Part shown: piece after piece, positions 604 to 36,663 of the stretch | Position numbering within the stretch: position 1 is the stretch's first letter | How the letters are laid out: every line of letters starts with the position of its first letter | DNA from: Sipunculus nudus | Lineage: Eukaryota; Annelida; Sipuncula; Golfingiida; Sipunculidae | Reading direction: 5' to 3' | DNA length: 64,000 nucleotides | Assembly (NCBI GenBank): GCA_026874595.1 | Contig: CM049318.1 | Coordinates: forward strand, 57,632,250 to 57,696,249 | Notes under the pieces: generated by a model | Databases searched by the model: none | Told to the model about the DNA's origin: nothing | Seen by the model: the letters and a program-made list of their open reading frames with translations, nothing else | Made by a program: the position numbers and the translations under genes

Positions 604-10466
<9,863 letters not shown>

Positions 10467-14819: not shown

Positions 14820-14987
14820 ATGGATCGAGCGCGGATCGTGTTTAACCATTTAAAAGGATACGGTGACCGGACGACGGATCTGACAGCCCAACCTACTGCT
14901 GCAGTCCATGGGTTCAGTCCAGACGATGTCGTCATCGTGTCCGCTAAACGTACACCGATATGCAAGTCCAGGAGGGGAGGACTCAAG
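14820..14987 (+). CDS. ACAA1: Thiolase copy B exon 1 (PTS2 leader)
   Basis: Residues 1-56: [14 protein letters not shown] carries the PTS2-like signal, then [20 protein letters not shown] starts the thiolase fold. Donor gtacat. Confidence 0.93.
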
Positions 14988-17900
14988 GTACATATATAAC
15001 ACAAGGCATTTCACTGTTTACATCGCCTGCTCGGCAAGTCCTGTATATATTGTATGCATGTTCTTTGAAGTATAGCAGTCATAATCATTAATATATATGA
15101 CAGCCAACATGCAGGGCCGTTCAGTTTATAGGATTCCACTATACTCAACTCGGGCGCAAGTACCTGCTGCTATAACCCCCCCCCCCATATTCTTAAATTA
15201 ACCTTAATAATTGTGACACTAAACAACAAAGAATTCATGTGTCAGTTTACTGGGTTTTTTTTTATATTTAAACTTCATTTTGATTTGCAGTCATATTTGT
15301 ATTGTCTCAGGTTGTAAGCTAATGTTTGGTGAATACAAGAGTTTCCAAGCAAAACCATCCCGGTGCACGCATTCATATCTCCAGTTCACCTGTTTTACAC
15401 GTTGTTATGTTTCTGTGTGTTAGTAAACATAGCCAACGCGTATACATGTGTCTGTTTGCCAAAACAAGACCACGTGACTCGACCTCGCGCATACGCGATA
15501 TTCCCAAATATGAAGAAGAAACATTAAAGGAACATGGAACAAACGCCTTTTGAAATCTTGAAAAGTCTTGATTTGTGAAGTTGCAAATTGCTTGGTGCGA
15601 CTACCAGGTTGGGTGTTTATTGTGTGTTAATGTTTAGTGCCGCTGATCGCGTCCGGTGCAAGCTTTTTTTCCACTATGCACATTAGTAAATGAACGGTTT
15701 TAGAACGATATATTGACAGTGAATATGTGAATATATGAATAGGTACCTTTAATTTACTTATATTGTAGGACACCCTGCCGGATGACATGTTGTCCACGGT
15801 ATTTCGAGCTGTGTTGGACGACAGCGGTCTTGATCCGAAGAGGGTCGGTGATATCTGTGTTGGTATGGTTAATTTGTCAAATAGCATCTCATATGAGATA
15901 AGACCCTGATAATATATACAAAACAAAAGGCTTATGTCATTTTATGTTAATATTAATACGTTTTATTAATTTAATGGTCAGAGCTATATCCCCAGACAAA
16001 GCCGGGGGATACTATATGGTTTTAGCACGGTCCCTCCGCCTCATAAAATTGTTGTGACAATTATTTTTAGACAACTAAAAAAATATTTCACAGATCTTTA
16101 TCAAACTTAATATGTGTAGGTCCTATAGATATGGAAGACTATTTCAAGGGGGTCATGACCTTTAATAGGAGAGTGACCTTGACCTTGAAATTCTTAAATA
16201 TCTCAAGAAACTGCATGGATTGGTCCAAAAATCAAGGTGACCCAAGATCTTGGATAGCCTTGTCATGTACTGGAAACTAGAGGCGCCACCTATTATCCTT
16301 TTTTTTTTTTGTTTTCGCGCCTTTTAATATCCCATTCATTGCTACTTGAAAGTACTGTGAGCATTATTACTTTCATATAAAGCACATGCACAGAGATGGG
16401 TTATAGGATGTGGCCTATTTAAAGTCGGGTCGTGACCATTACAATGAACATCGCCTTGACCTCGACTATTTCCATATTTGGTAAAAATCACACACCGCTT
16501 ATGATATCTCCAAATTCGATTGACTTATTAATTTCAAACTTGATTTAGATATGGCCCATCACTAAAGTAAGAACCCTATAGGTTTGGGGTCACAGGATTC
16601 ACAAATTTTAAAAGATTGTGAATGCATTTTAAGCCAAACCTTTCATCGCCGACCTTCCATACACATACAGCTCACCTGCTAATAGAGGAAGATCTCTGTG
16701 AATTTTTGGGTCACATTGTTAAAGGTGAAGGTCACAAGAGCAATCTGTCCAAAATTTGTTTCCAGATCGTAATTCAAGCTGGGATTAATATATGGATTTC
16801 AAACTTAACTATTACTAGTATATGGCCCACAAATAATCAAGCTCCCTGTTGATTTTCGAGTCATGAGGTCAAAGGTCAAGGTCACATGACCCACATCTTT
16901 AAAAAGATTGTGGATGCATTTTAAGCATAACTTTCATCCCAGACCTTCCGTCTGTATAGCTCACCTGCTATTAGGTGAAGATTCATTTCAAGTTTGGGGT
17001 CACAAGGTCAAACGTCAACGTCACAGGAGCCATCTGTCCTCAAATCTGTGGAAACATAGAACTTTGCTTAACCCTATAACTTTCGAAGTACTTCATCTGT
17101 TTCGACAAATTTGACATAACAATCTCCACCAAGTTGTCGGGCAGGTTCAAACATTTTTTTATCTTGGCCTTGGTGGCCTTGGCCTTGTCAGGTGTTCATA
17201 TATGCTTCAGAAGAAGGGGGCCTATTTTAGAAAGGGGAATGCCTTATTTGTCTGAGGATACTGCGGCATCTCCGATGCCAAAAATACAAGATTGTGAAAA
17301 AGCATTGATTCGTAAAATTTCCTGGTAAATGTTAACGCTCAGTAAGCCTTAAAATAATTTGCAAGGGGTTTGAGATGGGGTAGGGTTTTTAGCTCAGCTG
17401 ACTGTAAGTCAACTGAGCTATGGTGATCGGTCAGCGTTCGTCGCCGTCCGTCTGTCTGTTACACTGACACGTTTTGACAACGTTGGGCCCAGAAACCTGT
17501 ACCTAAATATATAGGGAGGTCAATAAAAAGTCTCCTTGGAAACCTGAAACTAAGTCACTGTGACCTATATCCTCCAAGCTATGGGACTTGTAAGTACCCT
17601 CAGAATAATTAAAAATTTGATACATACATCCAATATCTTGATAATTAATGCATGGATTGCCCTGAATCTTGCCTTGAATATTGACCATGACTAGAATTGT
17701 CAGTTGCCCGAACTGGTGGTGTCACTTGCATTTTTTTTTTCTAATTTTTACTTTTTTTTAAATTTTTTAGACCGTCAAATGACATCAGTTAATTTTATTA
17801 TCTCAGTTTCTTGACTGAGATTTCATCTAGTGTCCCGAAACCTGGTGTGTTAATTGATTATGCCTGGTTTCATCAGTACCTTAAGACTGGTGGCGCTACC

Positions 17901-20900
17901 TGTATTTTTGTAAACGATTTTTTTCTTTATTTTGATACTGACAAATTATATTGATACTATCCGATTTGCAACTGTGGTTTCATCTAGTGTCCTAAAACCT
18001 GGTGTGTTTTAAGGGCCCCACTTGAATAAGCGGATGCCCTATAGTAATCACCCTGTCTGTCCGTCCGACTGTCCGTCTGTTCGTCTTTCTGTATGGCTGT
18101 AAAATTTGTTTCTTGATGATAACTCCAGTTTGAATTGTCATGTCGATTTAAAAACTAATTTATATATGGCCCACCCGTAAAGCAAGACATCTGGTTGATT
18201 TTTGGGTCATGAGGTAAAAGGTCAAGGTCATAGGTTGTGGATGCATTTTAAGCCAAACTTTCACCCTAAACTTTCCATCGAACACATATAGGTTGCCTGC
18301 AAACAGGAGATGAACCGGATTGATTTTGAAGGTCAAAGGTCACAGTTCCCCATCTGTCCACATATTCGTTTCTGAATGATTAACATATTGGTTTTAAACT
18401 TGACTAATATATGGCCCACCACTAAAGTAAGTACCCTGTTAGGGTCATGGGTTCAAAGGTCAATGTCACAGGACCCACTTCTTAAAAAAGGTCGTGGATG
18501 CAGTTTAAGCCAAACTTTTAATCTCAAACTTTCCGTCATCCACAGTTCGATCACGTACCAATAGTGGAAAAAAACTTTTGATTTTTGGGTCACAAGATCG
18601 AAGGTCAAGGTAACAGGAGCCATCTCTTCAAATATCTGTTTCCAAATGATAACTCCAGTTTGAACTGACTAATGGATATTAAACTTGACTTATATTTGGC
18701 CCACCACTAAAGTAAGAGCCCTTTTGAATTTGAAATCATGAGGTCAGAAGCCAGGGTCACAGGACGAACTTCTTCAAAGTGATTGTGGATGCATTTTAAG
18801 CCAAACTTTTCATCCAAAACCTTCCATCTTCCACATGTGGCTCACATCAATAGAGAAAAGATTCAATAAGTTAGGTTTTAATGGAAATATTCTTATAATC
18901 AATTTCAGCTGAGCGCTATGACCCACAGGTCCCTTGTTTTCTCTTTTTTTAAGGCCTTCAAGGGAGCGGTCGTTCGTTAACACAAATAGTTACCGTTCAT
19001 TACCGTTACCTATAATCTTCTAAGTTGACATCCAGAGAGGCCCATGAAAAATCTCCTTGGAAACCTGAAATTAGGTCTCTGAAACCTATATCCCCAGGAC
19101 CCCCCCCCCCCCCCCCTCACGAAAATGTGATACAAAAGCTCCAGTATCTGAATAAATAATGCATTGATCGTCATAATTCTTTGCATGAATATAGATCATG
19201 GAGTGTTTCATCAGTTCCTACAGACTGGTGGCACCACCTGTAAATTTTTTCTTTCTATTTTTGAGACCTTCAAATAAAGCAGTCTGGCTGTAAATAGGTC
19301 ACAAACTGTTACCATTAGACCTCGAATCTTCTATCTGTACATCCAGTAAGGTCTTAGGCAAATCTCCTTAGAAACCTGAAATGAGGTCATAGTGGCCTAT
19401 ATTCTGCAAGATATGTGAAAGAACATGATTTGAGCACCCTATAGGACAGATTTCACTGTGACCTATATTCTGCAAGCTGTGTGAAAGAACATATTTTTAC
19501 ACTGTATTAGTCAGATGGGCACAAATGGTAGCAGTTGGTTGTAGAATAAGGTCACTGAAACCTTTATCTAAGGTCTATTGCAGAATTCATGATTCTGAGC
19601 ACTCTGGCAGTCATGTAACCCATTGTTCAAGGTTCCTTGAATTCCGCTGAGCGTCATGGCCCATGGGCCCCTTGTCTTATCCTGGTAGTTACTATACATT
19701 TTTAAAACTGTATATTTTGCAGGGAACTGCAGTATGAAAGGTGCAGGTGCATCTGTAAGCAGACGGGCACAGTTTTATTGGTAAGCAGCATATGTACCGT
19801 TACAGTATTGTTATATTGCATCAAGAAAAAGATAGACCTGTCCTGCCCACTAGCGACTCCTGTCGGCGACAACTTAAACTGTGTTTCCTGTATGTCTTAT
19901 TGTAAGATTTTATCATAGAAAATATGAATTAAACAACACAGGAATAACAGTTTTACATCACCAAATGGCCGAAAGGTCTGTCCAAATTTAGAATGCTCAT
20001 TACTTAAATGCCAAACATTATACTGCCAGTGTAGTGCATGGGGTGTACGCTTTACTACAGATACGACGGGTTTGTATGGGGTGTACGCTAAAGATCTGAA
20101 GGGTTGCAGGCTACTCAACTTTACCATTTTCTTAACCATCTCCATTTCCTTAAACATATGTAGGGACCCCAGCTACTCCCTCACTGACTTACCTGCGGGC
20201 CATGGAGTCTGCCTTCCAGGCCCGCCAACTAGTGAGTAATCAGATCCCCCTCTCTGACCCCTGGCTGTGAATTATCATCAGATTAATGTGAAAAGTAATG
20301 AACAGATCTTGTTTAAATTGTATGGAGGTTTAAGGCAACATCCACGGAAAAATCCATTAAATTTGTATTCACCATATTTATTTTTAATTGAAAAGATATA
20401 TCCCGTTATTAAAATTTTTCCTTATGACACACGGGTGTTACATTATTATAGGGCTATTATTGATAGCTGTTACTTAATGCTTTATTATGGAGGTGATCCG
20501 GGATAGGGTTGTTGAACTTTGACAACATAATGTGTACACATTACCGCATTATGTTGTAACATTTTGCCCTCATGCTGTTAACCTTTAGATCTTCACAGGC
20601 TGCTAGTGACTCCGCCCCCTGCCCCTGCGGAGAGGTAGTGGGCCTGTCGGCTGCCCCAGATCTCTCGGGGTAACTTTTAGTTAACTGTTTGATCATTGAT
20701 TTGAATATCTATTTAGGATGTATGTATGGAAAACAAAAACAGGACATCATGACTAAATACATGTACGTGTTGTCATTTTACCTCCAACAGTAACATCCCG
20801 GAGACTGTCCCCATGATGTCGATAAACCGGGCTTGTTCTTCTGGGCTCCAGGCCTGTATGAACGTGGCAGGTAAGTATACACTTTACTAGCGTTCAGAAT

Positions 20901-23036
20901 CGGTTGTTTAATTAAACTTTGGGATTCGATCGCCACTATTGTGCAGACTGAAAAATATTAATTTATAAACATCCATGAATCATAGCTTAGTGTGTTGTTT
21001 AATCGTATTGTGTCCGAAGTTGAAAATGTGATTTCCCTGCCATGTACAGTTCATAGGTGGGTGGTAAGATTTCGCTACAGAATAGACTAGTTTCTCATAA
21101 AATTGTTTTAAATTGTTTACAGAAAACAAACATAAGGTAGACTGTTATTTCCAAAACACTTTTGAAACCAGAAATTAGGTCTCTGTTACCCATACCCTTC
21201 GAGCTATGATTTTTGGCATACATATTGATCATTAAATGTTTCATCAGTTTATGCAGACTGGTGGCGCCACCTATATTTTTCGATATTTTACGAATTGTTT
21301 TCTCTATTTTTAGACCTTTAAAAATGTGAACATCTGTTAACAGGGCACAAATCGTAAAGACAGGACCTAGAATCTTCATTCTTGACACACAGGGAGACCC
21401 ATGAAAAGTCTCCATGGAAACCTGAAATTAGGTCTCTGTTACCCGTATCCTTTGAGCTGTGGGGCTCCCAATTACCCTCCCCCCGAGAATAATGGAAAAT
21501 TTGATAAAAAAAAGCTGCAACATCTCAATAACTACAACACTGAGGGTCATGATTTTTGGCATACATATTGATCAAGAGGTGTTCCATCAGTTCCTGCAGT
21601 CTGGTGGCGCCACCTGTATTTTTTAAATTTTTATAATTTTTTTTTCTCTATTTATGAGACCTTTAAGGATGTAGTTATCTGTCAACAGGGTACATATCTT
21701 AACGACTGAACCTAGAATCTTCATTCTTGACACACGGGGAGACCCATTAAAAGTCTCCATGGAAACCTGAAATTAGGTCTCTGTTACCCATATCCTTTGA
21801 GCAATGGAACTTTAAAGTACAACTCAGAATAATGGAAAATTTGATACAAAAGCTGAAGTATCTGAACAACTAATGCAGAAATCACAATAATTGTTTGCAT
21901 GGATATTGATCATGGAATGTTTCATCAGTTTCTGCAGACTGATGGCACCACGTATATTTGTTCGGGTTTTTTTTACGAATTTTTACTCTACTTTTGCGAC
22001 CTTAAAAGATATGAACATCTGTTAACAGGGCACAAATTGTATAGACTGGACCTAGAATCTTCATTCTTGACACACAGGGAGATCCATGAAAAGTCTCCAT
22101 GGAAAATGAAATTAGGTCTCTGTTTACCAAATCCTTTAAGCTATAGGACTCCGAAGTATCCCTAAGAATAATGAAAAATTTGATACAAAAACTGCAGTAT
22201 CTCAATAACTACAACACTGATGGTCATGATTTTTGGCATACATATTGATCATGAGGCGTTCCATCAGTTTCTGCAGACTGGGTGCGCCACCTATATTTTT
22301 TTCAAATTTTTACAAATATTTTTGTCTTTTTTTGAGACCTTAAAAGATGTGGTTATCTGTCAACAGGGTACAAATCATAACAACTGGACCTAGAATCTGC
22401 ATTCTTGTCATGCGAGGAGGCCCATGAAAAGTGTCTGTGGAAACCTGAAATTAGGTTTCTGTTTCCCATATCCTTCAAGCTATAGAACTCCGAAGTATCC
22501 CTCAGAATAATGAACAATTTGATACAATAGCTGAAGTATCTGAACAACTAATGCAGAGATCACCATGATTCTTTGGATGGATATTGTTTATGGAGTGTTT
22601 CATCAGTTTCTGCAGACTGGTGGTTCCACCTAGATTTTATTCAATTTTTCGAATTTTTTCTCTATTTTTGAGACCTTTAAGGATGCTGTCATCTGTTTAC
22701 ATGGCACAAGTTGTAACAACGAATGCAGAGTTCACCATGATTCTTTGCATGCATATTGATCATTAAGTCTTTCTATTAGTTTCTGCAGACTGGTGGAGCC
22801 ACTTGTATTTTTTACGCATTTTTTCTCTATTTTTTGGTATATAAATACAGACACAATTTTGGCCTGTTGGTTAATCTGTTTGATGCTTCAGTTGAATGGG
22901 TATATACTACCATTCAGATGATAAAATTTCCTTTTGCGAATCTCTTCCCAGTCAGCTGAGCGTCATGACCCATCGGTCACTTGTTATAACAGTATATCCA
23001 ATTGCAATTTATTTGAAAAGTGTCCCAAAGAAAATA

Positions 23037-23118
<82 letters not shown>

Positions 23119-23505
23119 GTTTACCAACAGGTTTTCCTAACTTTGATTACCCTCCCGATCCGAGTCACCCCCACCCACATGCATCCATGAAGTTTAATTG
23201 ACGCGACTTGACTGGTCATATCGCTTACACTTGATAGTAATTAACATTCCGCTGCGACTGTGCTAACTCAATAACATGAGTGAAACTTAGGTGAACATGG
23301 GCATATTTTGTGAGAAATGTATTCTTTGTCCTTTTTCAGGAAACATCAAGGCTGGTTTTTGCGATGTTGGTATTGGCGCTGGGTACGTGTTTAAAAGAAA
23401 ATTAAACTCGATTGGATCTACTGCATAAATCATAATTATTAAATAAAACAAGATAAACTGTAATTATTATAATTATTTTTTTTTATTTTTATTATCATTA
23501 TCATA

Positions 23506-23548
<43 letters not shown>

Positions 23549-24798
23549 ACACCTACATCAAAGAAAAAACATATATCGATATATAAATTTGAAATTCCAG
23601 TATTTCATGAGGCCTTACCATCAGATGGTAAACAAATATGAAGTATGCTGAACACGACTTTCTTATTTTAATTTTTTAATTTAAAATTTCTAGCTTATTT
23701 TTATTTTTAAATTCTCATCTCGACATACAGGAGAGTGACATATTGATATAATACTACTTATTATAACATTGAAACCTTTTCAAATATTTTCAAGTATCTC
23801 TCCAGGGGCGTAGCCAGGATTGAGAGAGGGGAGGGGGCCATGATCAGTGGCGGATCCAGAATTTCGAAAACGGGGGGGGGGGCACTAATATGCATGTATG
23901 GGTACTAAGAAAACTGTTATATATACGTGTATATGTATGTATATATATTATTAGTAGTAGTAGTATAACTATACGTTATATATTTTTCAATTATGAACCA
24001 TGATTTATTAAGGTTAGTTTCAGATACATGGGGAGGGTATGGGAGGGGGTGTCCCCCTCCCATATTTGGGAATTTTTTGAATATGTAATGTAAAGAGGAC
24101 ATTTTGAGGCAATTTTTACAAAAAAAATGAGGATTTCCTTTACCCGAAAAAACAGTTACCTCATGTCTTTGCGTAAGTAGTCAAACTGTAGAGAGGTTCA
24201 ATATTTAATATTTATATTTCTTCAAAATTATGATATAAAAATAAAACATGTTAAAATCAATGGATCAAAGGCGCATTTACGTTTATAACTTGCAAAATAT
24301 TATCTTTTAAATGTAATCTCGGAGTAAAATAACTGATATGTTGATGTCTTATGTTAAACTTTGTTAAACTAAATTTTACCGGGATCCGTGGTCTCGAGCA
24401 CACAGGACTCCTAAGAGCACAAATCGCGAGTAAGGTACCAACAGAGGATCGAGCCATGATATTGTCCACGTCCACGGTAAACCCAAACTATATAGGGCCT
24501 GGTGTTCTGCAGTTGTTCTGCAGCTGTTCATCAATATCCTCATCCTCAACTAATGAATTTGCAGAGTAATAAAATGCAGATAACTTAATAAAAATTTTAG
24601 AATCTTAAAATCTAATTGCTAATTAATAAAAAGAAATATGAAAAACGAAAATTAACCACGAAAATTGGGAAATTAGATAAAATGAAAGATATTGCAGCTC
24701 AACGGGGGGCCGCGCGTCCAAGGCGCCCTCTCTGGACCCGCTACTGATAACAAAGGCAATTTAATTCATATATAAATATATATATATGTGTGTGTCTT

Positions 24799-24854
<56 letters not shown>

Positions 24855-25868
24855 TAAGTGAAATTCCGAAAGGAAGGCGAGTACTGGATACAAAGGGGGG
24901 GGGGGGCCATGTCCCCCTGCGGCCCCCCTCTGGCTACGCCCCTGATCTCATTAATTTGCTGCAAAGCCCGTAAAGATAAAATACATCTAATTAACAAATA
25001 ACATATTTTAACAAAAGTATCCACAGTTATGTGATATATCTAAATAACTCAGGGGGCATTATTCTACAGCACTGGTAAACATGTTTCAGAGTTGAATCGA
25101 TGACACTCACACCAATGAATGAAGTCAAAGAATTTCTCCCGAACCCTAGAATAAAACAGTTCAAGTTGGCCCAAGACGCAATGATCCCGATGGGGTAAGT
25201 CAAAGTATTCAAACGATTCTTCAGTTCATTGAATCGCAAGCCCTCGATTAAATTGTAATCGATTATTAAACTCTGGATCGATTCATTTGATTATTATTTG
25301 TTTTGCATGTACCATCCCGAAGTCCTTTAATTGTGAGCTCTAAAATCTGACAGAGCAGTTCTTAACCGTGTATGTGCCCTAAATTTACTTTAAAAGTTCG
25401 CTTGTGGACCACTCCACTTGAATATAGAAACACATATGGCGGCGACAGAGGGAGAGCCGCATTTTTCTTTTATTTACTGAAATTTACCAACATCCAATTT
25501 GCTGAAACTGCTTTTATTTTTTTTCAAGTCTGGAATTAACTACTCTGTCACAAAATATAAAGACTTGTGTACATGTGTCAAATACAAACAGAATATTACA
25601 AAATAATAACACTATATATACACCAAGATTTGCTCTGCACTGGGAGCTATTAATGCAATTAGCCATTATTGTGAAAGCATGTAAAAAAAACTCCACAATG
25701 TACATATGATAATCTGAAATTTCGCTTTTTAAATTGCTTTTTACGGATATTTATATCAGACTCGGACTTGGACTTGGACTCGGGTTCTAAATGATTCGGA
25801 CTCGAAAGTGGACACGAACCTCAAGGAATATGATGGTGATGACTGGACTTCATCATACATTGTTAGGC

Positions 25869-25932
<64 letters not shown>

Positions 25933-28900
25933 CATATTTACTTATATGTATTTATATATCATTCCGACAGCGTAACGTCCGAGAATGTAGCGGAGCGGTT
26001 TGGGATTTCACGATTTCAACAGGATCAAATGGCTTGTCAATCCCATGAAAAGTGAGTGGAGCAAATTTATATATCACATTTCAGGTAGATATCGGTGTAA
26101 ATAAACAGTTTATAACTGAGCAGACAGAGGTGGAGTGTGATGCCCGCTGCTATATGGTACCAGCTCGCCAACATAAAATCAACATTCAATAATTCAGTAA
26201 GGTTGCAGTGATATTTAATCGCCTAAGACAAGTCTTATTATTAGCTCAGCTGACTTTCAGTCATGCTGGGCTATAGCAATGGGTCTTTGTCCGTCGTCCT
26301 TCCGTCCGTCCGTCCGGCCGTCCGTTAGCAGGGCACAAATCGTAACCGTAGGGGCTAGGGTCATGAACCCTATGCAGTCTTAGAGGTTCTAAAAAGATCT
26401 CCTTGCAAACCTTAAATTAGGTCACTGTGACCTATATTCTCGAAGTTACAGGGTGTGTTTGCACCCCCCAGAAATAATTTTTTTATAAGGGTCACCGTCC
26501 GTCCATAATTCCGTCCGTTACTCCAAACATTAGGTGCATTTTCATGAAGCTCACTTTGCTCACTATAAAAATACTAATAATTTATCTCACCTGAGTTCGA
26601 GTTTTGGCAAAATCCACGCATCTTTAATGAGGTCAGAGCCTCAGAGGTCAACAGTCTTCTGAGTAGTGTCGCCATGGTAAACTACCAGAATTTGTTGGAT
26701 TTTATGCTATGATTATACACTAATATAGTGTCATGCCTCGGTTTGATTCTCGGCAAATCCACGATATTTTATCAGGTCAATGGTCACCATGATGCCTGAC
26801 CAAAACGAGTTGGATTTTCATGCAACTCACTATTAATATTTACCAATAAGGTTTCTGACTGATCTGTCTTGGTTTCGCTGTGATAACTAGGAATTCAATT
26901 AGAGTTGAAAACAAAGGTCAACGGCCAAAAGACATTCGACGGCGTATTATGCTCTAGCTCCTGCGGTGCTCTTGTTTAATTGTTTTATTATTTTTTTTTC
27001 AGAGCTCATCGAGCACAGACCCAGGGTCTTTTTGACGATGAGATTATTCCCGTTCACACCATCCTGAAAGACAAAGCGGGAAATGCTAAAAATGTAGTTG
27101 TGAGTGACTACTTCCTGTTCCGCATGTGCACTGAATGCTCCTGAAAAGAGTACGCCTGTGGTCGACTCGCGCCTATATAAATTCCATAGTAGTCCATATC
27201 AATTGTCTAGAGTACATGTTTTTTGTGGATTAATTTACCCTGTCATAATTTTAAGTTTGTTGTCATGACGACCACGGACAGTTTTTGTAATATGCAAATC
27301 AGGGCTGTGACCATAAAAATAAAGTTTAATCAGATATCAAAGTTCTTGAGATATAAAGAAACGTTTTTTCAATTGCAGCTCTAATTTTCATATTGCAGCA
27401 ATTGACCAAGGTAGTCATGAAGGTGACCAGGCGTAAACGTATCAGAGAATTATCATATGTACATGTCCATGAGATGATAGTTTTCAATAAAAAAAAAATT
27501 AACAGTAATGAAATAAATCTTTTTTTTTTTACCTTACACACATATATATGTATACATATTGATATTCATTTATTCAATCGACAATTTTAGATAAGTAAAG
27601 ATGACGGTATCAGGCCACAGACGAACATGCAGACTTTGGCGAAACTGAGGGCGGTTTTCAGAGAAGGAGGCAGCACAACTGCGGGTAGGTATACAGCAGG
27701 GATAAATTTAAGTAAAGGGGCGACCGAGTGTTAGAAAGCATTTGTCCATGAAAATTTAAAACCGTACTTTGTGGCATAATGGTAAATTGAAATCATCCGT
27801 TTTTATACCGATTTTACGTATATATGTCAACTGGGGACCTTATTGGCCTACGAATGCAGAGTGGCAAAATAATTTCTGTTGCAATTTTGTTCTAAGTTTG
27901 ATGTAAAATTCGGCTAGATTTAGTGGGATAAATACCCAATTTTATATAACAGGCAACGCTAGTCAGACGAGTGATGGAGCTGCAGCTGTGATTCTGGCCC
28001 GTCGGTCTGCGGCGGAGGAGCTGGACCTCCCCATCCTCGGGGTACTGAGGAGTTACGCTGTGGTTGGTGTTCCTCCTGATGTCATGGGGATCGGACCGGC
28101 GTATGCTATTCCTGAGGCGCTCAAGAAAGCAGGTTAGTAGGCAGTAACGTGTATTACAATATGTTGTCGGAGACATCATCCCCCGCCAGGGTGATCTTAG
28201 ATGTGTAATCTACACTCAACAACTCCGTCCCAGGTCAGCTCCAGCACAGAGCCACCCTGTAATACCGACAAGAAAAGTTGATCTGAGGTACAGATCTGGT
28301 ATGTCCCCCGCCTGTTGTGGAAGCAGCCCTTCATGAGGAATTGTCAGTGCTGCGAGTATGGTGACTGCCTCAAATTCTTTTCAAGTTATTGCGTTAACAT
28401 CATTTTAGCATTATCGCCTATGTGACCTTTAGAAATGTGTCAAGGTCATCCACATTCGAACTTAACCTACCCCTTTATAAGGTGTATCAATGCGGCAACT
28501 TTTGTGACTGTACGTTAATTTGTTTTTATGTTATAGCGTTAACACCATATCTGTGACGGACGGACAGACAGACGGATGGACTCTCCTAATTTCTATGGGG
28601 GAAAAAAGTAGCTCTATTATAATGAAATTGCCGTAAGAATGGCACAGAATCCTTTAAATACCCCCAAAAATTGCAGCATTTCTCCGTTAAAAATTCCTGG
28701 ATCCAGATAGTGATTCGGATCACCCCCAATATTTAACCAATTGTTCCTTGTGTCACTGCCGGGCTTTCCTGAAATTTCATCAAGTGAAAAACTTGTTGAG
28801 TAACGTTGCTAACAGACATACAGAAAAACAAAGAGACGAACAAACCAACGCCGGCAAAACATAATCTTCTTGGCGGAGGTAATTAGGAAATAGAAGCGGA

Positions 28901-31045
28901 AAATATTAAAAAGGAAAGACGGAAATCACACCATGTATAACAACACCATGCTCATTCTTGATAAACGGACAAAACTTGCAGAAAGTGATGATTATGTAGA
29001 ATTTCTTAAAATATTTATTGGTGTTCATTTTGTATCTTCATTTTTATAAGTACATGATGCTTAAAAATATCTATAATAATTCACTTAAACAAACACGCCT
29101 TCACAGCGGTTCACGGCATTTTGAAGGTGAATGATGCAAACCAAACGGAAAAAAAAGTACAGTAGGTTGTATGAAGAAAAATTAGGAAAATTATGATCCA
29201 TGGACAGTGTGCTATAGAGAAGCTGACAAATTTGTCGGTGTGCAGAGGTGATTCTTTTATGTCATGTTTAGTATTTCTGTTTTAAAGGTCTAATATGTAA
29301 TAATAACGATGTATTTTTGAGATGGATAAACCTTTCTATAGCTTGGTCATATTTTGTATTTCTGTTTACGCAGGTCTAACACTTAATGATACTGATGTGT
29401 TTGAAATCATCGAAGCCTTTACAAGTGGATCATATTTTGTGTCTTTTTTTTTACAGGCCTAACGCTTGATGATATTGATGTGTTTGAGATCAACGAAGCC
29501 TTTGCCAGTCAGGCAACATACTGTGTCCAGAAGCTGGGAATCCCCATGGAGAAAGTAAACCCCAAGGGTGGAGCGATCGCCCTCGGTCACCCACTAGGGT
29601 GTACAGGTGCTAGACAGATCGCAACCCTTCTTCATGAGCTGAAACGACGAGGGGAAAGGTCAGTGGATATTGCCTTGGTCTCTGTATCGTATATCGGCAT
29701 AACCCCCCCCCCCCCCGTAGGATAGGGAGGCTAATGACGATTGTTTAGTTTATTTCTGTAATCATGTTCGGGTAAAATATGTTTATGGGTGGAAATACTT
29801 TAGTTCTTCTAGAGTGCAAAACCATCGATAGAATTTTTTACTCATCTTTTTTTTCTAGTGTCATTTCTGTTTTCTCGATATCTGGTATAACTGATTTTCA
29901 AAAGTGGAAATTGTCAACAATATTAGTCCTAAGACTTGTCCTGAAACCTGGTGTGTTTATTGATCATAAGTGGATATCGTAAAGTAATCACCCTGCCGGT
30001 CCGTCTGTTCGTCTGTCTGTCCGTCCACAAATTTGTTTCGAGACGATAACTCCAGTTTGGTTCAATATATGGGATTTTCAAACTTGATTTATATATGGAC
30101 TACAACTAAATAAGAACTCTAACGATTTTGGGGTCATGAGGTCAAAGGTAAAGGTCGCACGATCCTATTATTTTAAGGATTGTGGATGCTTTTTAAGTCC
30201 AACTTCTAATCCGAAATCTTAAATCTTCGGCATATAACTGACCTGCCAATTGAGGAGGAACTTAATTGATTTTAGGTTCTCAAGGTCAATGGTCAAGGTC
30301 AAAGGACCCATTTCCTTTAAAAGAATGTGAATGTATTTTATGCCAAACCTTCATCACAAACCTTCCATTTTCCGGATATTGCTCACCTGCCAATATGGAA
30401 AGATTCCTTTCGATTTTGGGGTCACAGGGTCAAGGGTCAAGGTCACTTACCATCCATTCACAAAGTAGTTAATGGACGATAACTCTAGTTTGACAGACAG
30501 ATTTGCTTCATACTTGATTTATTAATGACCCACCACTAAAGTAAGAAGCATTTTGAGTTCAGGGTCACGAGGTCAAGGTGAAAATTATAGGACCCACATC
30601 TTTAGAAAAAATGTGGATGCATTGTAAATTAAACTTTTCGTCCCAAACATTTTTTCTTTCACACATGGCTTACCTGCCCAAAGTGGAAGAAATCTGTAGA
30701 TTCTGAGGTTATCTGGTCAGAGGTCAAGGTCACTGGACCCACTTTTTAAGAAAAGATTGTTATGATAATGTAATTTCTGCAAGTTCAAAGGTAGTAATTT
30801 CTCAGATTCAACGGTCACAAGGTCGAGGGTTATGCTCACAGAACCCACATGTTGAAAACGCTCATAAAAAATATCCTTAAAGACAAAGCGTCGAGACCCA
30901 TGGGTCCTTGGTTAATTTAAAAAGTTGTGTGTTGCGGTTCATCTTATATTTCTGCATTTTGTGTTACAGAGCGTATGGCGTGGTGTCCATGTGTATGGGG
31001 TTTGGCATGGGAGCAGCCGCTGTGTTTGAGTTTCCAGGAAAGTGA
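14820..31045 (+). CDS. ACAA1: Peroxisomal 3-ketoacyl-CoA thiolase, copy B (complete, 12 exons)
   Basis: Complete thiolase of peroxisomal beta-oxidation. Join 14820-14987, 15769-15862, 19723-19780, 20791-20870, 23340-23382, 25090-25194, 25971-26051, 27003-27099, 27591-27684, 27953-28132, 29457-29658, 30970-31045: 1278 nt, 425 residues, close to human ACAA1 (424). The N-terminus has a PTS2-like nonapeptide R3-A-R-I-V-F-N-H10-L11 (R-x-x5-H-L; Ala at position 2 is atypical), predicting import by the PEX7 route. Catalytic residues are Cys122 (NRACSSG), His378 (ALGHPLG) and Cys409 (SMCMGFG). All introns are GT-AG and the frame is unbroken. The start was chosen because PTS2 follows it directly. It lies 4.4 kb downstream of its paralogue, on the same strand. 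Its large introns are filled with repeats, several carrying DR1 nuclear-receptor motifs. Confidence 0.95.
15769..15862 (+). CDS. ACAA1: Thiolase copy B exon 2
   Basis: Residues 57-87, [19 protein letters not shown] through RVGDICV. Acceptor attgtag, donor gtatgg. Confidence 0.93.
15988..17120 (+). repeat. Repeat block with DR1-bearing modules, thiolase B intron 2
   Basis: Starts near gccgggggatactatatggt. Repeats the module ggtcacaaggtcaaaggtca, then gattgtggatgcattttaagcc and gctcacctgc. Modules are about 140-150 bp apart (16715, 16866, 17005). A perfect AGGTCAAAGGTCAAGGTCA sits at 16866-16884. Boundaries are approximate. Confidence 0.6.
17391..18937 (+). repeat. Repeat family 1, long copy, thiolase B intron 2
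   Basis: Begins with the hairpin AGCTCAGCTGACTGTAAGTC then AACTGAGCT. Ends cagctgagcgctatgaccca followed by caggtcccttgtt. A second repeat start (gcggatgccctatagtaatc) is embedded near 18027. Modules with AGGTCA-like sites recur at 18212, 18330, 18450, 18595 and 18741. Confidence 0.7.
18955..19677 (+). repeat. Repeat family 1 fragment, thiolase B intron 2
   Basis: Shares the family modules atctccttggaaacctgaaa, ttaggtctctg and catcagttcctacagactgg, and ends gctgagcgtcatggcccatg then ggccccttgt. Contains a C-run at 19098-19116. Confidence 0.6.
19723..19780 (+). CDS. ACAA1: Thiolase copy B exon 3
   Basis: Residues 88-106, [19 protein letters not shown], equivalent to human GNVLQPGAGAIMARIAQFL. 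Ends with TG of the codon for Cys107. Confidence 0.9.
20164..20231 (+). other. Exon-like GC-rich island in intron 3 of copy B
   Basis: 68 nt between a good acceptor (pyrimidine tract, atatgtag) and a consensus donor (gtgagt). Open in one frame ([20 protein letters not shown]). It is not needed for thiolase, because exon 3 joins exon 4 exactly as in human ACAA1. Inclusion would shift the frame. A second GC-rich piece with acceptor ttcacag lies at 20599-20634. Confidence 0.3.
20791..20870 (+). CDS. ACAA1: Thiolase copy B exon 4 (nucleophilic Cys)
   Basis: Residues 107-133, [19 protein letters not shown] through ACMNVA. Contains the acyl-accepting Cys122. Donor gtaagt. Confidence 0.94.
21090..22985 (+). 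repeat. Tandem array of a ~340-bp monomer, thiolase B intron 4
   Basis: The landmark ctgcagactggtggcgccac recurs at about 21251, 21594, 21932, 22271, 22610 and 22783, giving periods of 343, 338, 339, 339 and a truncated 173. Each monomer also holds acctagaatcttcattcttg and tccatggaaacctgaaatta. The array ends in a family 1 terminus (agtcagctgagcgtcatgac then cggtcacttgtt). Confidence 0.85.
23042..23117. repeat. (TA)n-(TG)n compound microsatellite
   Basis: TA repeat passing into a GT repeat of about 24 bp, just upstream of exon 5. Confidence 0.95.
23340..23382 (+). CDS. ACAA1: Thiolase copy B exon 5
   Basis: Residues 134-147, [14 protein letters not shown]. Acceptor ctttttcag, donor gtacgt. 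Confidence 0.93.
23508..23547. repeat. (ATT)n microsatellite
   Basis: About 13 ATT units in intron 5 of copy B. Confidence 0.9.
23845..24746. mobile_element. hAT-like non-autonomous element (nested)
   Basis: Left end cagtggcggatccag; right end ctggacccgctactg, an inverted repeat with two mismatches. It lies wholly within 23803-24944. No coding capacity recognised. Confidence 0.65.
24769..24851. repeat. (TA)n-rich microsatellite
   Basis: TA repeats broken by tgtgtgtgtct, between the ends of the two nested hAT-like elements. Confidence 0.9.
25090..25194 (+). CDS. ACAA1: Thiolase copy B exon 6
   Basis: Residues 148-182, [19 protein letters not shown] through DAMIPM. Donor gtaagt. Confidence 0.94.
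25872..25927. repeat. (TA)n microsatellite
   Basis: TA repeat about 45 bp upstream of exon 7 of copy B. Confidence 0.95.
25971..26051 (+). CDS. ACAA1: Thiolase copy B exon 7
   Basis: Residues 183-209, [19 protein letters not shown] through QSHE. A (TA)n tract lies just upstream in the intron. Confidence 0.94.
26243..26976 (+). repeat. Chimeric family 1/family 2 repeat before exon 8 of copy B
   Basis: Begins with the family 1 hairpin AGCTCAGCTGACTTTCAGTC and a ccgtccgtccgtccgg tract. Ends with the family 2 terminus ctgcggtgctcttgtt. AGGTCA-containing modules lie at 26630, 26774 and 26914, about 140-145 bp apart. The end is 26 bp from exon 8. Confidence 0.65.
27003..27099 (+). CDS. ACAA1: Thiolase copy B exon 8
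   Basis: Residues 210-242, [20 protein letters not shown] through KNVV. The acceptor is 26 bp after the end of a dispersed repeat, as in copy A. Confidence 0.94.
27591..27684 (+). CDS. ACAA1: Thiolase copy B exon 9
   Basis: Residues 243-273, [19 protein letters not shown] through GGSTTA. Acceptor attttag, donor gtaggt. Confidence 0.94.
27953..28132 (+). CDS. ACAA1: Thiolase copy B exon 10
   Basis: Residues 274-333, [19 protein letters not shown] through AIPEALKKA. Donor gttagtag, identical to copy A. Confidence 0.95.
28133..29287 (+). other. Thiolase B intron 10, first part
   Basis: About 1.15 kb with no exon or bounded element recognised. An acggacggacagacagacgg tract at 28556-28575 looks like an inverted repeat-family fragment. 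Confidence 0.35.
29288..29456 (+). repeat. Tandemly duplicated 3' splice-site/exon-start units, copy B
   Basis: Two decayed units precede the true exon. Starts at 29288 and 29374 lead to the exon at 29457 (spacings 86 and 83). The unit at 29374 keeps a CAG acceptor and readable exon-like sequence, but 83 nt is out of frame and runs into TAA. The unit at 29288 has AAG instead of an acceptor. Confidence 0.75.
29457..29658 (+). CDS. ACAA1: Thiolase copy B exon 11 (catalytic His)
   Basis: Residues 334-400, [19 protein letters not shown] through HELKRRGE. Contains His378 in [16 protein letters not shown]. Donor gtcagt. Confidence 0.95.
29852..30912 (+). repeat. Repeat block with ~145-bp modules, thiolase B intron 11
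   Basis: Contains a ccgtctgttcgtctgtctgt tract, then modules with AGGTCA-like sites at 30139, 30283, 30426, 30570, 30714 and 30820. Ends gcgtcgagacccatgggtcc then ttggtt. The left boundary is approximate. Confidence 0.65.
30970..31045 (+). CDS. ACAA1: Thiolase copy B exon 12 (second catalytic Cys, stop)
   Basis: Residues 401-425, [20 protein letters not shown] then EFPGK and TGA. Contains Cys409. No PTS1 tripeptide at the C-terminus, consistent with PTS2 import. Confidence 0.95.
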
Positions 31046-31464
31046 GCCCCAGTAACCGGAAAACATCTAGCTACAAAACCAGTGACACTGCTATAAAAAA
31101 TGAAAATATGCTCAGTTAAAATCAGTTTATTTTGCCATATCTGATCTGATCATAATTAATTTTTAATTATTCCTTTTCAACCAATAATATCTTATTGGCG
31201 AATTTATCTCTCAGGTATTTGATCATGTGCTTATGTTCAAATGAAATCTATGCTCCTCACGCGGGATCACTGGGCAGGAACACCAGGGTGCGCACAGAGC
31301 ACAGAATTGTAATCAGACAATTGAAAGCTTGGTATTGCATTGTGCATCCAGCCCGAATTTTTAAACATGCGACACCCGCTCTCGTTGGTCTAATAGCACC
31401 CGTTCTTGCATAGAGCCAAGAATCAGACCAATGAGAGCTTGTGTAACCGCTATGTGAGGAGAGT

Positions 31465-31470
31465 AATAAA
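31465..31470 (+). promoter_or_regulatory. Candidate poly(A) signal of thiolase copy B
   Basis: AATAAA 420 nt after the stop codon. A second AATAAA lies at 31819-31824, beyond a (TA)n tract. Confidence 0.45.
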
Positions 31471-31674
31471 ATCTAGTCATATCAGAATATTGGTCATTTT
31501 GTCAATGTGGCCTTATGATCGAGGCTTTCATTGGACGTAGGTGTTATCTGTTGTGTTGCCTCTGTTACATTTTTTGAGCACCTGCAAACTTAAAAAAAAG
31601 TCGACTATAATAAACATAGCTTATATATTCTCCGATGCTTTTATCGTAATATTACATGGTTACGTGTATTTTGG

Positions 31675-31682
31675 TGTATATA

Positions 31683-31737
<55 letters not shown>
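31675..31737. repeat. (TA)n microsatellite
   Basis: TA repeat with one TTT interruption, between the two candidate poly(A) signals. Confidence 0.95.
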
Positions 31738-31739
<2 letters not shown>

Positions 31740-32799
31740 AAGGATTATGTTATATATATGGAAGGAGCTCACCTGAACAGTCATAATACTTCAAAGATTA
31801 CTGAGCAAGCATTATATGAATAAATGTTATACTTATATTTGTGAATTATTTTGTTATTGGAAAGATGTGGGTAATCCGTTGTCCAATAACTGTGTTCGTT
31901 TGTCAAGAGAAGTTTTTTAGAAAAACAGTTTTACGAAAGCTGCTGCATATTTATGAAGTGTATGAATGCTTTCAATAAATTCTTTTGATTTATCTTAGTC
32001 TAATTTTTTTATTTTTATTATTTGTGAACTTTGACTTTGAATCGGACTTTGACTTGGCCATGTCAAATCCATTTCTGTCAGTTGTTATGTCAAGTTCTCT
32101 CAGTTACTATACAGACTTTATATACATGCGCGAAACAACCAACACAGTATATATGATCTACAAAAGGAAAACATTTACCAAACTTTAGTTCAACATCCGG
32201 AGCTAAACGTATCATAAAACATTCAAATAAAATCCATGTGTAAAATAAACATTAAAATACACAGGATAAAGTCAAGTTTCCATTTAAAATATCTCTGAAA
32301 AGGAGATTTGTATTGACTCGGACTTGGACTCGGGTTCCAGTTGACTTGGACTCGAGTAGCCTGGACTCGGAATCGCACTCGGACTTGGATGTTGTGGACT
32401 AGGCTATACATCACTGCGGTTCTGTCTCTTTATCTGGCCTTGAAGATGCTTATGGGCTTCTAAACGGGACCATCTATTCCAAAGTCCAACCAAAAAGGTT
32501 TAAAGGGAAACCTTAAACCTTGGTCCAACATATTAAGACCTATATACCCCGAAAAATGATTTTCCCCTCCTGTCTCAAACCCCACGATGTTTAACCCTTC
32601 CAATGTGGCATACATGGACATCCACTCAAAATTTTATACTAGCAGTTTGGGATCAGCCTTCCATATCTTTTCTTTGTGACATGACATAAGCCATTATCTT
32701 AATCTCCTTTAAGAGCTGAAGTATTTATTCTGCTTTTAAACCCTTGCATACAATCAGCATTCGCACTTTAAAATTGGTTTTTCATAACCTTTTTTTTTT

Positions 32800-34649
32800 A
32801 GCTCAGCTGACTGTTAGTCAACTGAGCTTAAGCGATCACTCTTTGTCCGTCGTCCGTCCGGCGTGCCGGCCGTCTGTCCGTTAACAAGGCACAAATCGTA
32901 ACCACTACACCTGGAATCTTCTTACTTAAAAACCAGGGAGGTCCTTGAAAAGTCTCCTTGGAAACCTGAAATTAGGTCTCTGTCACCCATATTGTCCGAG
33001 CTATGGGGCCCAGAAGTACCCCCAGAATTATGAAAAATTTGATAGTAAAGCTCAAATATCTGAACAACTAATGCATTGATCACAATGATTCTATGCGTGG
33101 ATATTGATCATGGAGTGTTTGATCAGTTTCTGCAGACTGGTGGCGCCATCTGTATTTTTTCGATTTTTTAACGATTTTTTTCTCTATTTTGAGATTTCTT
33201 TTGGTCACGAGGTCAAAGGTCAAGGTCACAGGACTCAATTATTTTTAATGATTATGGCTGCATTTTAAGCCAAGCTTTTTATCTCAAACTTTCCATTTTG
33301 CACATTTAGCTGACTTGCAAGTATGGAGAGAGCATAAATGAATTTGGGCTCACATGGTCAAAGGTCAAGGTCACAGGGGCCCATCTGTTCACGTATTTGT
33401 TTTCCGATAAAAAATACAGTTTAGTTTGATATATTGGTTTCAATTTTGACTTATATATGATTCACCAATAAGGTAAGAACCCTTTTGATTTTGGGGTCAT
33501 AAGGCCAAAGGTCAAGGTCACAGGACCCACTTCTTTAAAAAGATTTTTAACGTATTTTTATCCACACTTTCTGTCCAAACCTTCTATCTTCCAGATGTTG
33601 CTCACTTGCCAATAGTTGAAGTAACTAAGGGGTTTTGGGGTCACAAGGTCAAAGGTCAAGGTCATTTGGGCCATCTATCCAAATTTTAGTTTCCAGATGG
33701 TAACACCAGTTTGGTTTGAAATATTGGTTTCAAACTTGACTTATATATGGCCCACCACTAAAGTAAGAACTGTTGATTCTGGGTCATGAGATCAAAGGTC
33801 AAGGTCACAGGACCCACCACTTAAAAAAGACTGTAGATGCATTTTAAGCCATACTTTTCATCTCAATCCTTCCATCATCAATTTGTGGTGCACCTGCCAA
33901 TAGGGGAAGCTTCCCTTTGATTTTGGGGTCACAAGGTCAAAGGTAAAGGTCACAGGGCCCATCCATTTCAAATTAGTTTATGGATGATAACTTCCGTTTT
34001 GGTAGACAGGTTGGCTTCAAACTGATCACAGGACCAATATTTTCGAAAACCTCATAAACATATATCCTTATAGACAAATGCAGCTGAGCGTCGAGACCCA
34101 TCCCCCAGCATAATTAAAAATTTGCTACCAAAGCAGGGCACAGATCATAAACATTAGACCTGGAATCTTCTAACCTAAAATCCAGGGAGGTCTATGAAAA
34201 GTTTCCTTGGAAACGTGAATTTTTGTCTCTGTTACCCATATTTTCTGAGCTATGGGGCTTATAAGCACCCCTCAGAATAATTGAAACTTTGATACCAAAG
34301 TAGGGCACAAATCATAACCTTTAGGCCCAGAATCTTCTGACTTGACATCCTGAGAGTTCCTCAAAAGTTCTTCCCAGAAACCTGAAATTGGGTCACCGTG
34401 ACCTATATTCTCAGAGTTTTGGGGTATGTTTGAGCATCCCAGAAATAATGCAAAAAACACAATTTGCGATATTCCTCATAAAAGGGTGGTTGGATTATCA
34501 TCAAATTTGTTGTGCTTATGGGTCTTGATGAACTTAAGCTAATATGCATGAACAATGATGCCACCTACATTATCTCAATAAGTTGTCTGTGCAGGGACAT
34601 ATTATCAATATGTCAGTCGGCTGAGCGTCATACCCACGGGTCACTTGTT
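32800..34649 (+). repeat. Repeat family 1, full-length copy
   Basis: Begins AGCTCAGCTGACTGTTAGTC then AACTGAGCT (hairpin) and a ccgtcgtccgtccgg tract. Ends gtcggctgagcgtcataccc then acgggtcacttgtt. 1850 bp. It holds one 340-bp-type module (ctgcagactggtggcgcc at 33131) and six ~145-bp modules starting at 33210. It has no protein-coding capacity. Confidence 0.8.
33181..34030 (+). repeat. 145-bp tandem array with AGGTCA half-site clusters
   Basis: Half-site clusters start at 33210, 33355, 33502, 33646, 33789 and 33934, spaced 145, 147, 144, 143 and 145 bp. Those at 33210-33228 and 33646-33664 read AGGTCAAAGGTCAAGGTCA exactly. Each monomer also carries gatgcattttaagcc and gctcacctgccaatag variants. 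Confidence 0.85.
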
Positions 34650-36114
34650 AATCCTATGTCCAAAATAGTGGACCAACCATCAGACAGACTACAGACATTT
34701 CACATTTTGCGTAAAATCTCACAGCAAAGGTTATCATAAACAATGGTCTTCAGCTAACGTATTTGGCCGTAAGATATTTTCCCCTTTGGAAAATATTATT
34801 GAAACAAGAACAGACCGGAAACGAATGAAAAATGCCATGTACATTATTGTGCTGCATGTTTTAAAATAATACAAGCTTGTAGGGCACGTATACATTATGT
34901 AATTATTGCTATATATGCAGAGGTAAAGGTAAAAACTCGGCAGGCAGGGAAAAAAGGTTTAAAAGAAATTATTGGAACCAGAAAAGCACTCACTATAGAG
35001 CGCAAACCCCCGCCTAGGCAAATCAATATCTGTATCCGGAGCGCACGAAAATTTGATGGGATGATCCCTGCACGGCCCACGAAAGAGTGTTGGTAAATAG
35101 GTTCAGTAGTGTAATCAGACAAGGGTGGAACCATAGCCTCCGTTACAGCGGTAACAATAATCGTGCTGCCTCGCATAAAACATATGCAGGTAATCACACA
35201 ATTTAGTTTTATAAAATGTCTAAAGAAAAAATACCCGATAATCTTTCTCGTGTACAATAAATATAACGTATGGTTCTGAAGGTTAAATAAGCCTTCTTGC
35301 TATTACTATCCACACAAAAAAATGGTTTGTGCCGTGTTATGAATGAGTGATTTTAAACACCTGTATGTAATAATAGACCTTCTACTTTGAAATTTCTTTG
35401 TATGATTTTACATCAGCGCCAGTGCCATGCCGTATTTCCTCAGAAAACAAACCCGGGGGCGGTTACCAGGAAGACGGTCGAGGTACCTGGTCTCTACAAA
35501 CACAAAAGCTAGCAATATAAGCTGCGCGTGATGATACGTGTGTGTGTTTGTATATAAGTCCTGATGTGGCTTATTTAAAATCCTTATGTGGCGTATATCA
35601 CACCTGATCCGCCGTACCTCCTGACAAGGCATTTAACGCCGAAAAGGAGGTAGTCAAAGGAGGTAATCTTTGGGACGTTTTTCTTCTGAAAAAAATTGCA
35701 TTTCTTTCCGATGTGACCTACCTGAAGGTACATCACATGAGCCAGAAACTCATGTTTAATTTCTAACATCAGTCCGTTTACATTCATTTTTTTATTTTAA
35801 AAATGATTAGTTAATTGTTACATTCACAAGTTCAGATGACTACCTTATTAGAAACTGGTGGTTGGCAGTAACAGGAGCAATGTACCTTTGTGGTTCTGTA
35901 AAGATCTTCCGATAATTTATATATGGATTGTAAAGATTTCTAAATCTTATTAAAAATTTGCTGATGTCAAAATATAAATTGGCTTGTAATGTCAAATGTC
36001 TTTGAAATGGCACATATTTATGAAGACACAAATGACCATGTCACAAACAGTAAAAAGTAAAACTCATCTCAGAAAAAGAAACCATATTCTAATTATTTTT
36101 AAATATCAGTTTTT
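34650..36114. other. Intergenic, nothing recognised
   Basis: No exon, RNA gene or bounded repeat seen. The minus-strand ORF at 34895-35257 (120 codons) has no recognisable domain and no splice or promoter support. Confidence 0.35.
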
Positions 36115-36663
36115 ATACGCCCGTCAGTTGACGGGACCATTATTGTATTCCCATTCTCCGTCCGTCCGTCCATCTGTCTGTTACCTTTTATTGTCGCCGC
36201 GATAACTTTTGCCGGGGCATTGATCGATTTTCACGAAACTCGCCATAACTACTTAACAATACAGGTTTTCTCTCCCGACTTCGATTATGGGCAACATCCA
36301 CACATATATTTAATAAGGTCGTGGGTCACTAGGCTTCTTTGTGGTGTCGCCACGTAGAACATGAAGAATATAAAGGATTTTGATAAACTCATCAGAAATG
36401 TTAATCAATAAAATATCTCGTATAAGTTCGATTTCTAACAAATTCCATGTATATTTGATGAGGTCAGAGGTCACCGCACTTTTGGAGGCACCTTGGTGAC
36501 TTACCAAAAAATCCTATGGATTTTCATGAAACTCATTATACATATATACCAATAGAATTTTTCACCTGAATTACCTTCTCATCAAAATTCACGCATATTT
36601 AATGAGGTCAGAGGTCACCGTGCACATACACGACGGGAGTATGCACGTTTACGGTGACCTTGT
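36115..36663 (+). repeat. Repeat family 2, complete copy
   Basis: Begins tacgcccgtcagttgacggg (hairpin) and a ccgtccgtccgtccatctgt tract. Modules have AGGTCA-type sites at 36316, 36461 and 36605 (145 and 144 bp apart). Ends gcacgtttacggtgaccttg then tt. Perfect AGGTCAGAGGTCA sits at 36461-36473 and 36605-36617. Confidence 0.75.

Follow-up and report, generated by a model that had tools for sequence, protein, structure and literature searches.

The plan reported for non-autonomous Helentrons (HINEs) comprises subterminal inverted repeats, central tandem repeats preceded by a GTCC-type microsatellite, and a palindrome near the 3′ end (PMC7492417, PMC4067079), and the left-flank microsatellite of the oyster HINE is of the GTCC/GTCY type (PMC7492417). 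Elements resembling this plan occur in a 64,000-nucleotide stretch of Sipunculus nudus DNA (GenBank assembly GCA_026874595.1, contig CM049318.1, positions 57,632,250 to 57,696,249 of the forward strand), hereafter called the window, which also carries a peroxisomal thiolase gene. A sequence-only reading of this DNA had drawn attention to nuclear-receptor-type motifs, AGGTCA-N-AGGTCA (direct repeat with a one-base spacer, DR1), carried by tandem repeats in and around the thiolase gene, and had raised the possibility of a link to PPAR and lipid metabolism, with chance as an equal alternative. We consider it probable (roughly 0.8) that the DR1 motifs are the core of approximately 145-bp monomers in the central arrays of at least two HINE-like elements, and that their place near the thiolase gene is incidental.

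Perfect DR1 motifs are carried by two families of tandem repeats

The window contains eight perfect DR1 motifs, all on the forward strand, and AGGTCA half-sites number 72 on the forward versus 20 on the reverse strand. Markov models of order 1–4 (60 simulations each) gave a mean of 0.00–0.12 perfect DR1 per window, with a maximum of one, thereby ruling out chance as the origin of the excess. All eight motifs lie within two families of ~145-bp tandem repeats, A and B, which were delimited by self-comparison, including self-BLAST, and occupy 5.3 kb of the 64 kb; when the eight repeat arrays (5,333 bases) were masked, no perfect DR1 was left in the window. With up to one mismatch allowed, 20 sites were counted, one of which (44822) lies outside the arrays. 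A third AGGTCA directly abuts the DR1 at 16866–16884, 33210–33228 and 33646–33664, and none does so at 18330.

The four perfect sites named in the sequence-only reading were found where it had placed them, and its weaker sites carry one mismatch (26774) or one to four mismatches per monomer (30139–30820). It was right that the repeats are tandem, the spacing of family A cores being mostly 143–147 bp with exceptions from 106 to 150 bp, and our data support its view that the motif belongs to a repeat consensus and that repeats are the carriers of DR1. Its wording “in and around” this gene was selective: the sites at 33210 and 33646 lie beyond the stop codon, and the same repeats occur window-wide.

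Family A comprises four arrays (16.5, 18.1, 30.0 and 33.2 kb) with a unit of ~288 bp, made up of two ~144-bp halves, A1 and A2, which have in common a ~46-bp box including the DR1 core and nothing detectable elsewhere. Family B likewise comprises four arrays (2.3, 26.5, 36.1 and 56.4 kb), with a monomer near 144 bp. A perfect DR1 is present in 4 of 21 A monomers and 4 of 12 B monomers, and a DR1 with at most one mismatch in 13 of 21 and 6 of 12, respectively. The elements at 17 kb and 33 kb are composite, as repeats of a third type, C, adjoin A in both. Monomer models built from the flanks only added two array-edge fragments (18102 and 30028) and one partial B match (59960); since they were built from the same monomers, their recovery of those monomers is by construction. 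The eight A and B arrays found (2304–56939) all have the same forward orientation.

A similar core in a second source of DNA

A search of prokaryote genome contigs with the 22-base core AGGTCAAAGGTCAAGGTCACAG retrieved two contigs (L001 and L002) of one Bacteroidetes metagenome-assembled genome (PIVJ01). Their longest start-codon frames are of 144 and 125 residues, and because such short frames are unlike bacterial DNA we took both contigs for animal DNA; they are probably animal contamination, with transposons, in the metagenome-assembled genome. Each contains one HINE-like element, L, the ends of which differ from those of the window elements. Eight or nine L cores were counted per contig (at most four mismatches), and the exact 22-base core was present in 4 of 8 and 3 of 9, a total of 7 of 17. 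The spacing of these cores is 138–166 bp, and exactly 147 bp in five of the eight L002 intervals, giving a monomer of ~147 bp. The A and L consensus sequences have a stretch of 22–24 bases in common, against a null maximum of 13. The core was the query by which L was retrieved, so that its sharing follows from the search itself; this does not apply to the element plan or to the nucleosome-length monomer.

An inverted repeat with a three-base spacer, AGGTCA-N3-TGACCT (IR3), an arrangement of the estrogen-receptor type, was present in C-type repeats and in a flank repeat of L001, in perfect form at window position 26419 and at position 223 of L001. The spacers of the window and L001 pair are CTG and GTG, the L001 site spans 223–237, and four sites in L001 are spaced 146–158 bp apart. 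IR3 is thus a second receptor-like arrangement common to both sources.

The arrays resemble the central repeats of HINEs

The A and B arrays look like the central repeats of HINEs, and pairs of ends could be read for some copies (Table 1). The better copies of the A/C, B and L elements displayed the HINE plan, and the fit was uneven. Subterminal inverted repeats matched over 11 of 12 bases (L001) and 9 of 12 (L002) in L; in B they matched over 9 bases at 2.3 kb and 8 of 9 at 36.1 kb and more weakly at 56.4 kb, and the 26.5-kb copy had no left end. An inverted copy beside the 5′ subterminal repeat was clear at 17391 and 32800 (A/C), at 36.1 kb (B) and at both L left ends, and degenerate in the remaining B copies. 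The left-flank GTCC-type microsatellite was present in A/C and B, and short in L (two or three units). A 3′ palindrome, as read from the sequence, was observed in four of five A/C right ends (two perfect and two imperfect); in B it was GCAC..GTGC at 56.4 kb and degenerate in the other copies, and in L it was GTACC..GGTAC in both contigs. The left ends at 17.4 and 32.8 kb have runs of T, and several right ends are followed by T.

Table 1. Repeat arrays, element ends, receptor-type motifs and thiolase exons in the window
Positions	Strand	Feature	Remarks
2304..2851	+	Family B element	Perfect DR1 2657–2669; subterminal inverted repeat 2316/2814 (9 bases)
16501..17049	+	Family A array, thiolase intron	Perfect DR1 16866–16878, third AGGTCA up to 16884; neither element end identified
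17386..17419	+	Left end of second HINE-like element	Architecture as at 32790..32828; read from sequence
18101..18860	+	Family A array, thiolase intron	Perfect DR1 18330–18342; between left and right HINE-like ends
18907..18935	+	Right end	GCTGAGCG and imperfect palindrome GACCCACAGGTC
21206..22716	+	C repeat, 339 bp x 4.5	Relatives adjoin A in composite elements; IR3 site decayed here
26419..26433	+	Perfect inverted repeat AGGTCA-CTG-TGACCT (IR3)	Within C-type repeat
26560..26940	+	Family B array, thiolase intron	DR1 with one mismatch at 26774
30020..30860	+	Family A array, last thiolase intron	Degenerate DR1; 3/6 monomers within one mismatch; right end only
30888..30913	+	Right end	Subterminal-repeat remnant and palindrome GACCCATGGGTC
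32790..32828	+	HINE-like left end	T-run, subterminal repeat and inverted copy, then GTCCGTC microsatellite; read from sequence
33199..34030	+	Family A array 3′ of thiolase	DR1 with at most one mismatch in 6/6 monomers; perfect at 33210 and 33646; between left and right HINE-like ends
34620..34649	+	Right end	GCTGAGCG and palindrome-like ACCCACGGGT, then CTTGTT
36110..36664	+	Family B element	Perfect DR1 36461 and 36605; subterminal repeats 36117/36632 (8/9 bases)
56389..56939	+	Family B element	Perfect DR1 56739; left end degenerate
16866, 18330, 33210, 33646	+	Four perfect DR1	Within the interval of the sequence-only reading
2657, 36461, 36605, 56739	+	Four further perfect DR1	Beyond that interval
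6806–7000/27946–28140; 9185–9501/29345–29660; 10383–10468/30962–31047		Matching exons of the two thiolase copies	

Conservation within the monomers

A1, A2, B and L showed no similarity to one another outside the core and the 24 bp upstream of it (P 0.25–0.93), and the best-conserved 13-bp windows lay at or beside the core in A2, B and L. The core was less divergent than the remainder in 36 of the 42 monomers compared (A1, 7/11; A2, 8/8; B, 10/11; L, 11/12); these 42 were 19 of the 21 A monomers (30714 and 30820 left out), 11 of the 12 B monomers (26915 left out) and 12 of the 17 of L. Since otherwise unrelated monomers have a common core, and since this core stands at or near the conservation peak, it was apparently retained: source elements seem to have kept the DR1-type core as the remaining monomer sequence turned over. 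The cores of individual copies also decay, so that constraint, if real, would have acted on the source elements and not on each copy. These considerations draw on 33 window monomers from eight arrays and on 17 cores from two related contigs.

The A and L cores hold both DR1 and an overlapping extended half-site of the NR5A/ERR type, TCAAGGTCA, which was exact in 10 of 18 A cores and 11 of 17 L cores; the A counts for both sites cover 18 of the 21 monomers (16586, 18330 and 30564 left out).

The thiolase locus

The peroxisomal thiolase gene is present in two tandem copies (4700–10470 and 14770–31047). One exon translation matched peroxisomal 3-ketoacyl-CoA thiolase (best solved relative 2iik, E value 2.4e-32), all four exon translations tested matched Pfam Thiolase_C, and the other exons were recognized by eye. 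The arrays at 16.5, 18.1, 26.5 and 30.0 kb, three of family A and one of family B, lie in introns of the second copy, and the 33.2-kb array lies past its stop codon (31043–31045), from which the DR1 motifs at 33210 and 33646 are 2.2–2.6 kb distant.

No concentration of DR1 was observed at the thiolase locus (4700–31047, limits that we set ourselves), which makes up 41% of the window and contains 8 of the 20 sites with at most one mismatch (binomial P 1.0) and 2 of the 8 perfect sites (binomial P 0.48); this enrichment test concerns the present window only. Nor was there any sign, in the small numbers of this window, that DR1 is better preserved in the thiolase introns: sites with at most one mismatch were found in 7 of 15 A monomers in the introns versus all 6 of the array lying 3′ of the gene, and in 1 of 3 B monomers in the intron versus 5 of 9 elsewhere. 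The proposed link of the motifs to lipid metabolism and PPAR therefore found no support, and on the data of this window PPAR control of thiolase was rejected as a candidate.

Just upstream of one intact thiolase exon, in both gene copies, there are decayed ~84-bp tandem copies of the start of that exon (9175–9350 and 29261–29509), possibly remnants of exon duplication. Elsewhere, 40277–42670 is an open frame encoding 798 residues, among which Ser, Asp and Glu are very abundant.

AGGTCA arrays in phage contigs

A scan of viral contigs for the DR1-pair pattern led to three phage contigs (L006–L008), with a 12-bp minisatellite and, twice, the same iteron-like intergenic array, in which AAAGGTCAAAGGTCAA recurs as direct repeats and TTGACCTTT as inverted copies (L007, 5872–6090; L008, 350–620). 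Two long cores and the IR3 core gave no match in the viral contigs scanned, and the single matches of shorter cores in three others (L003, L004 and L005) were judged to be due to chance.

Discussion

To judge from their anatomy, HINE-like elements may be copied by rolling-circle replication with the enzymes of autonomous partners, and this copying would have scattered the DR1 motifs. Individual copies decay after insertion, and source elements seem to have retained the core while the remaining sequence changed, a pattern seen in a small sample. The retained core might bind a candidate host receptor, either of the DR1 type (RXR, HNF4, COUP-TF or TR4-like) or of the NR5A/ERR type at TCAAGGTCA of A and L, and such binding would open chromatin or aid transcription in the cells where the element moves. 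Putative host nuclear-receptor binding with this effect is our leading reason for the retention of the core, held at less than even odds. A wider proposal is more speculative, and we regard it as unlikely: a nuclear-receptor docking core would be the one retained module of otherwise unrelated, nucleosome-length HINE central repeats in different animals, and the elements would use host receptors to open germ-line or early-embryo chromatin, and would have spread many regularly spaced receptor sites, one per nucleosome-sized unit, over these genomes.

Several observations weigh against our main reading. With regard to anatomy, the A subterminal repeats match over ~7 bases only, the published length being 11–12; one of the five A/C right ends has a broken palindrome (34.1 kb) and one is without GCTGAGCG; and no ends were identified for the 16.5-kb A array. 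With regard to conservation, the best 13-bp window of A1 is TGGATGCATTTTA (0.83), elsewhere than the core, which comes second, with the DR1 at 0.82. The 13-bp DR1 ranks 3 of 134 in A1, 21 of 134 in A2, 8 of 134 in B and 3 of 133 in L, and the 22-bp stretch ranks only 5, 24 and 31 of 125 in A1, A2 and B and 10 of 124 in L. The alignments were anchored on the core, so that low core divergence was favored; the sharing of the core between A and L is ascertained, L having been retrieved by it; and B has no long word in common with A or L (8–9 bases, within the null). In A, moreover, TCAAGGTCA is better kept (0.074 mismatches per base) than DR1, which has 0.111 and is exact in 3 of 18 cores. Finally, the AGGTCA arrays of phage contigs L006–L008 occur where there are no nuclear receptors, and the motif alone is therefore no proof of a receptor.

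As to which receptor the core would suit, the data do not decide between the two types. In L as in A, TCAAGGTCA is better kept than DR1 (0.039 versus 0.059 mismatches per base in L), which speaks for an NR5A/ERR-type reading of these two. B has DR1 only, so that DR1 is what all the families have in common, which points to RXR, HNF4, COUP-TF or TR4-like receptors, all of which prefer DR1.

Two rival explanations address only the last step, namely why the core is shared. The stronger, to which we assign a substantial though minority likelihood, is that the core has no function: AGGTCA-A-AGGTCA-AGGTCA would be a small internal duplication surviving by descent from one ancestral monomer, in arrays homogenized by unequal exchange. 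That the core is itself a 6–7-bp repeat, that the box common to A1 and A2 (~46 bp) is wider than a receptor site, and that oyster HINE monomers likewise have short common segments in otherwise dissimilar sequence (PMC7492417) are all consistent with this explanation. However, neutral descent is not expected to leave an identical 22-base stretch in the A and L consensus without similarity elsewhere, nor does it readily explain why conservation in A2, B and L peaks at the core or next to it.

The second, which we think unlikely, is that the core serves the element itself, in replication, recombination or docking of the Rep protein, and not a host receptor. The iteron-like phage arrays of L007 and L008 demonstrate that AGGTCA-type motifs arise without nuclear receptors, and, by the title of a work cited in the oyster report, conserved motifs may promote satellite rearrangement in nematodes (PMC7492417). 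On the other hand, the termini of Helentrons have been suggested as the structures needed for transposition, and tandem repeats are described in only some HINE copies (PMC4067079).

A DR1 with A as spacer has the classical arrangement. The weakest alternative, that thiolase is now regulated by functional PPAR/RXR or HNF4 response elements which the repeats brought in, is possible in principle, given the intronic arrays and the PPAR homologue described in one mollusc, the Pacific oyster (PMC4070562), but is very improbable in view of the absence of enrichment at the locus, the greater decay of the intronic cores and the presence of the same arrays away from the gene (36 and 56 kb).

Should the core of the HINE-like elements bind a receptor, satellite-bearing Helentrons would provide invertebrate genomes with hormone-receptor sites in large numbers, and in such animals the sites carried by repeats would overwhelm any scan for DR1 or estrogen response elements near a candidate gene. 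Even without a function of the core, caution is advisable before intronic DR1 motifs are taken as regulatory in such genomes. It also becomes possible to test why satellite monomers that are unrelated retain a short core in common. No paper describing a DR1-type core in such repeats was found in the literature searched, a weak negative because most subscription journals and all supplements were outside the search; three of six core fragments were absent from the text searched, and the others turned up in eight papers, one of them with a toy software example (PMC10166586).

Comparison with known systems

COUP-TF and TR4 on variant telomeric repeats are an example of receptors occupying tandem-repeat DNA, although one paper argues for an indirect role, and their targets are telomeric hexamers, as opposed to the dispersed transposon arrays of the window. 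In mouse, the SINE (short interspersed element) B1 contains TCAAGG(C/T)CA, which is bound by NR5A2, also on nucleosomes (PMC11102866), and which parallels TCAAGGTCA in the A and L cores; that case differs in being a SINE of a mammal with binding shown, and our family B is without the extended half-site. The DINE-1-like element of Drosophila miranda is a non-autonomous Helentron that spread binding sites of the male-specific-lethal complex genome-wide (PMC4067079); protein and function are different, and host use is reported for that element, as against a candidate site here. The Pearl elements of bivalves, re-classed as non-autonomous Helentrons, resemble ours in having up to six central repeats (PMC7492417), but their repeat is ~160 bp, versus ~145 bp here, and the comparison is one of description.

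The closest parallel is the Pacific oyster Cg_HINE with the Cg170/HindIII satellite (PMC7492417, PMC8268682), which we likewise compared by description. About half of its monomers are 160–180 bp long (PMC7492417), versus ~145 bp here, and the parts of the reports accessible to us mention no DR1-type core. Like the window elements, it combines subterminal inverted repeats, a GTCC-type microsatellite, a short central satellite-like array and a 3′ palindrome, and its monomers, like ours, are unrelated to one another but have short conserved segments in common.

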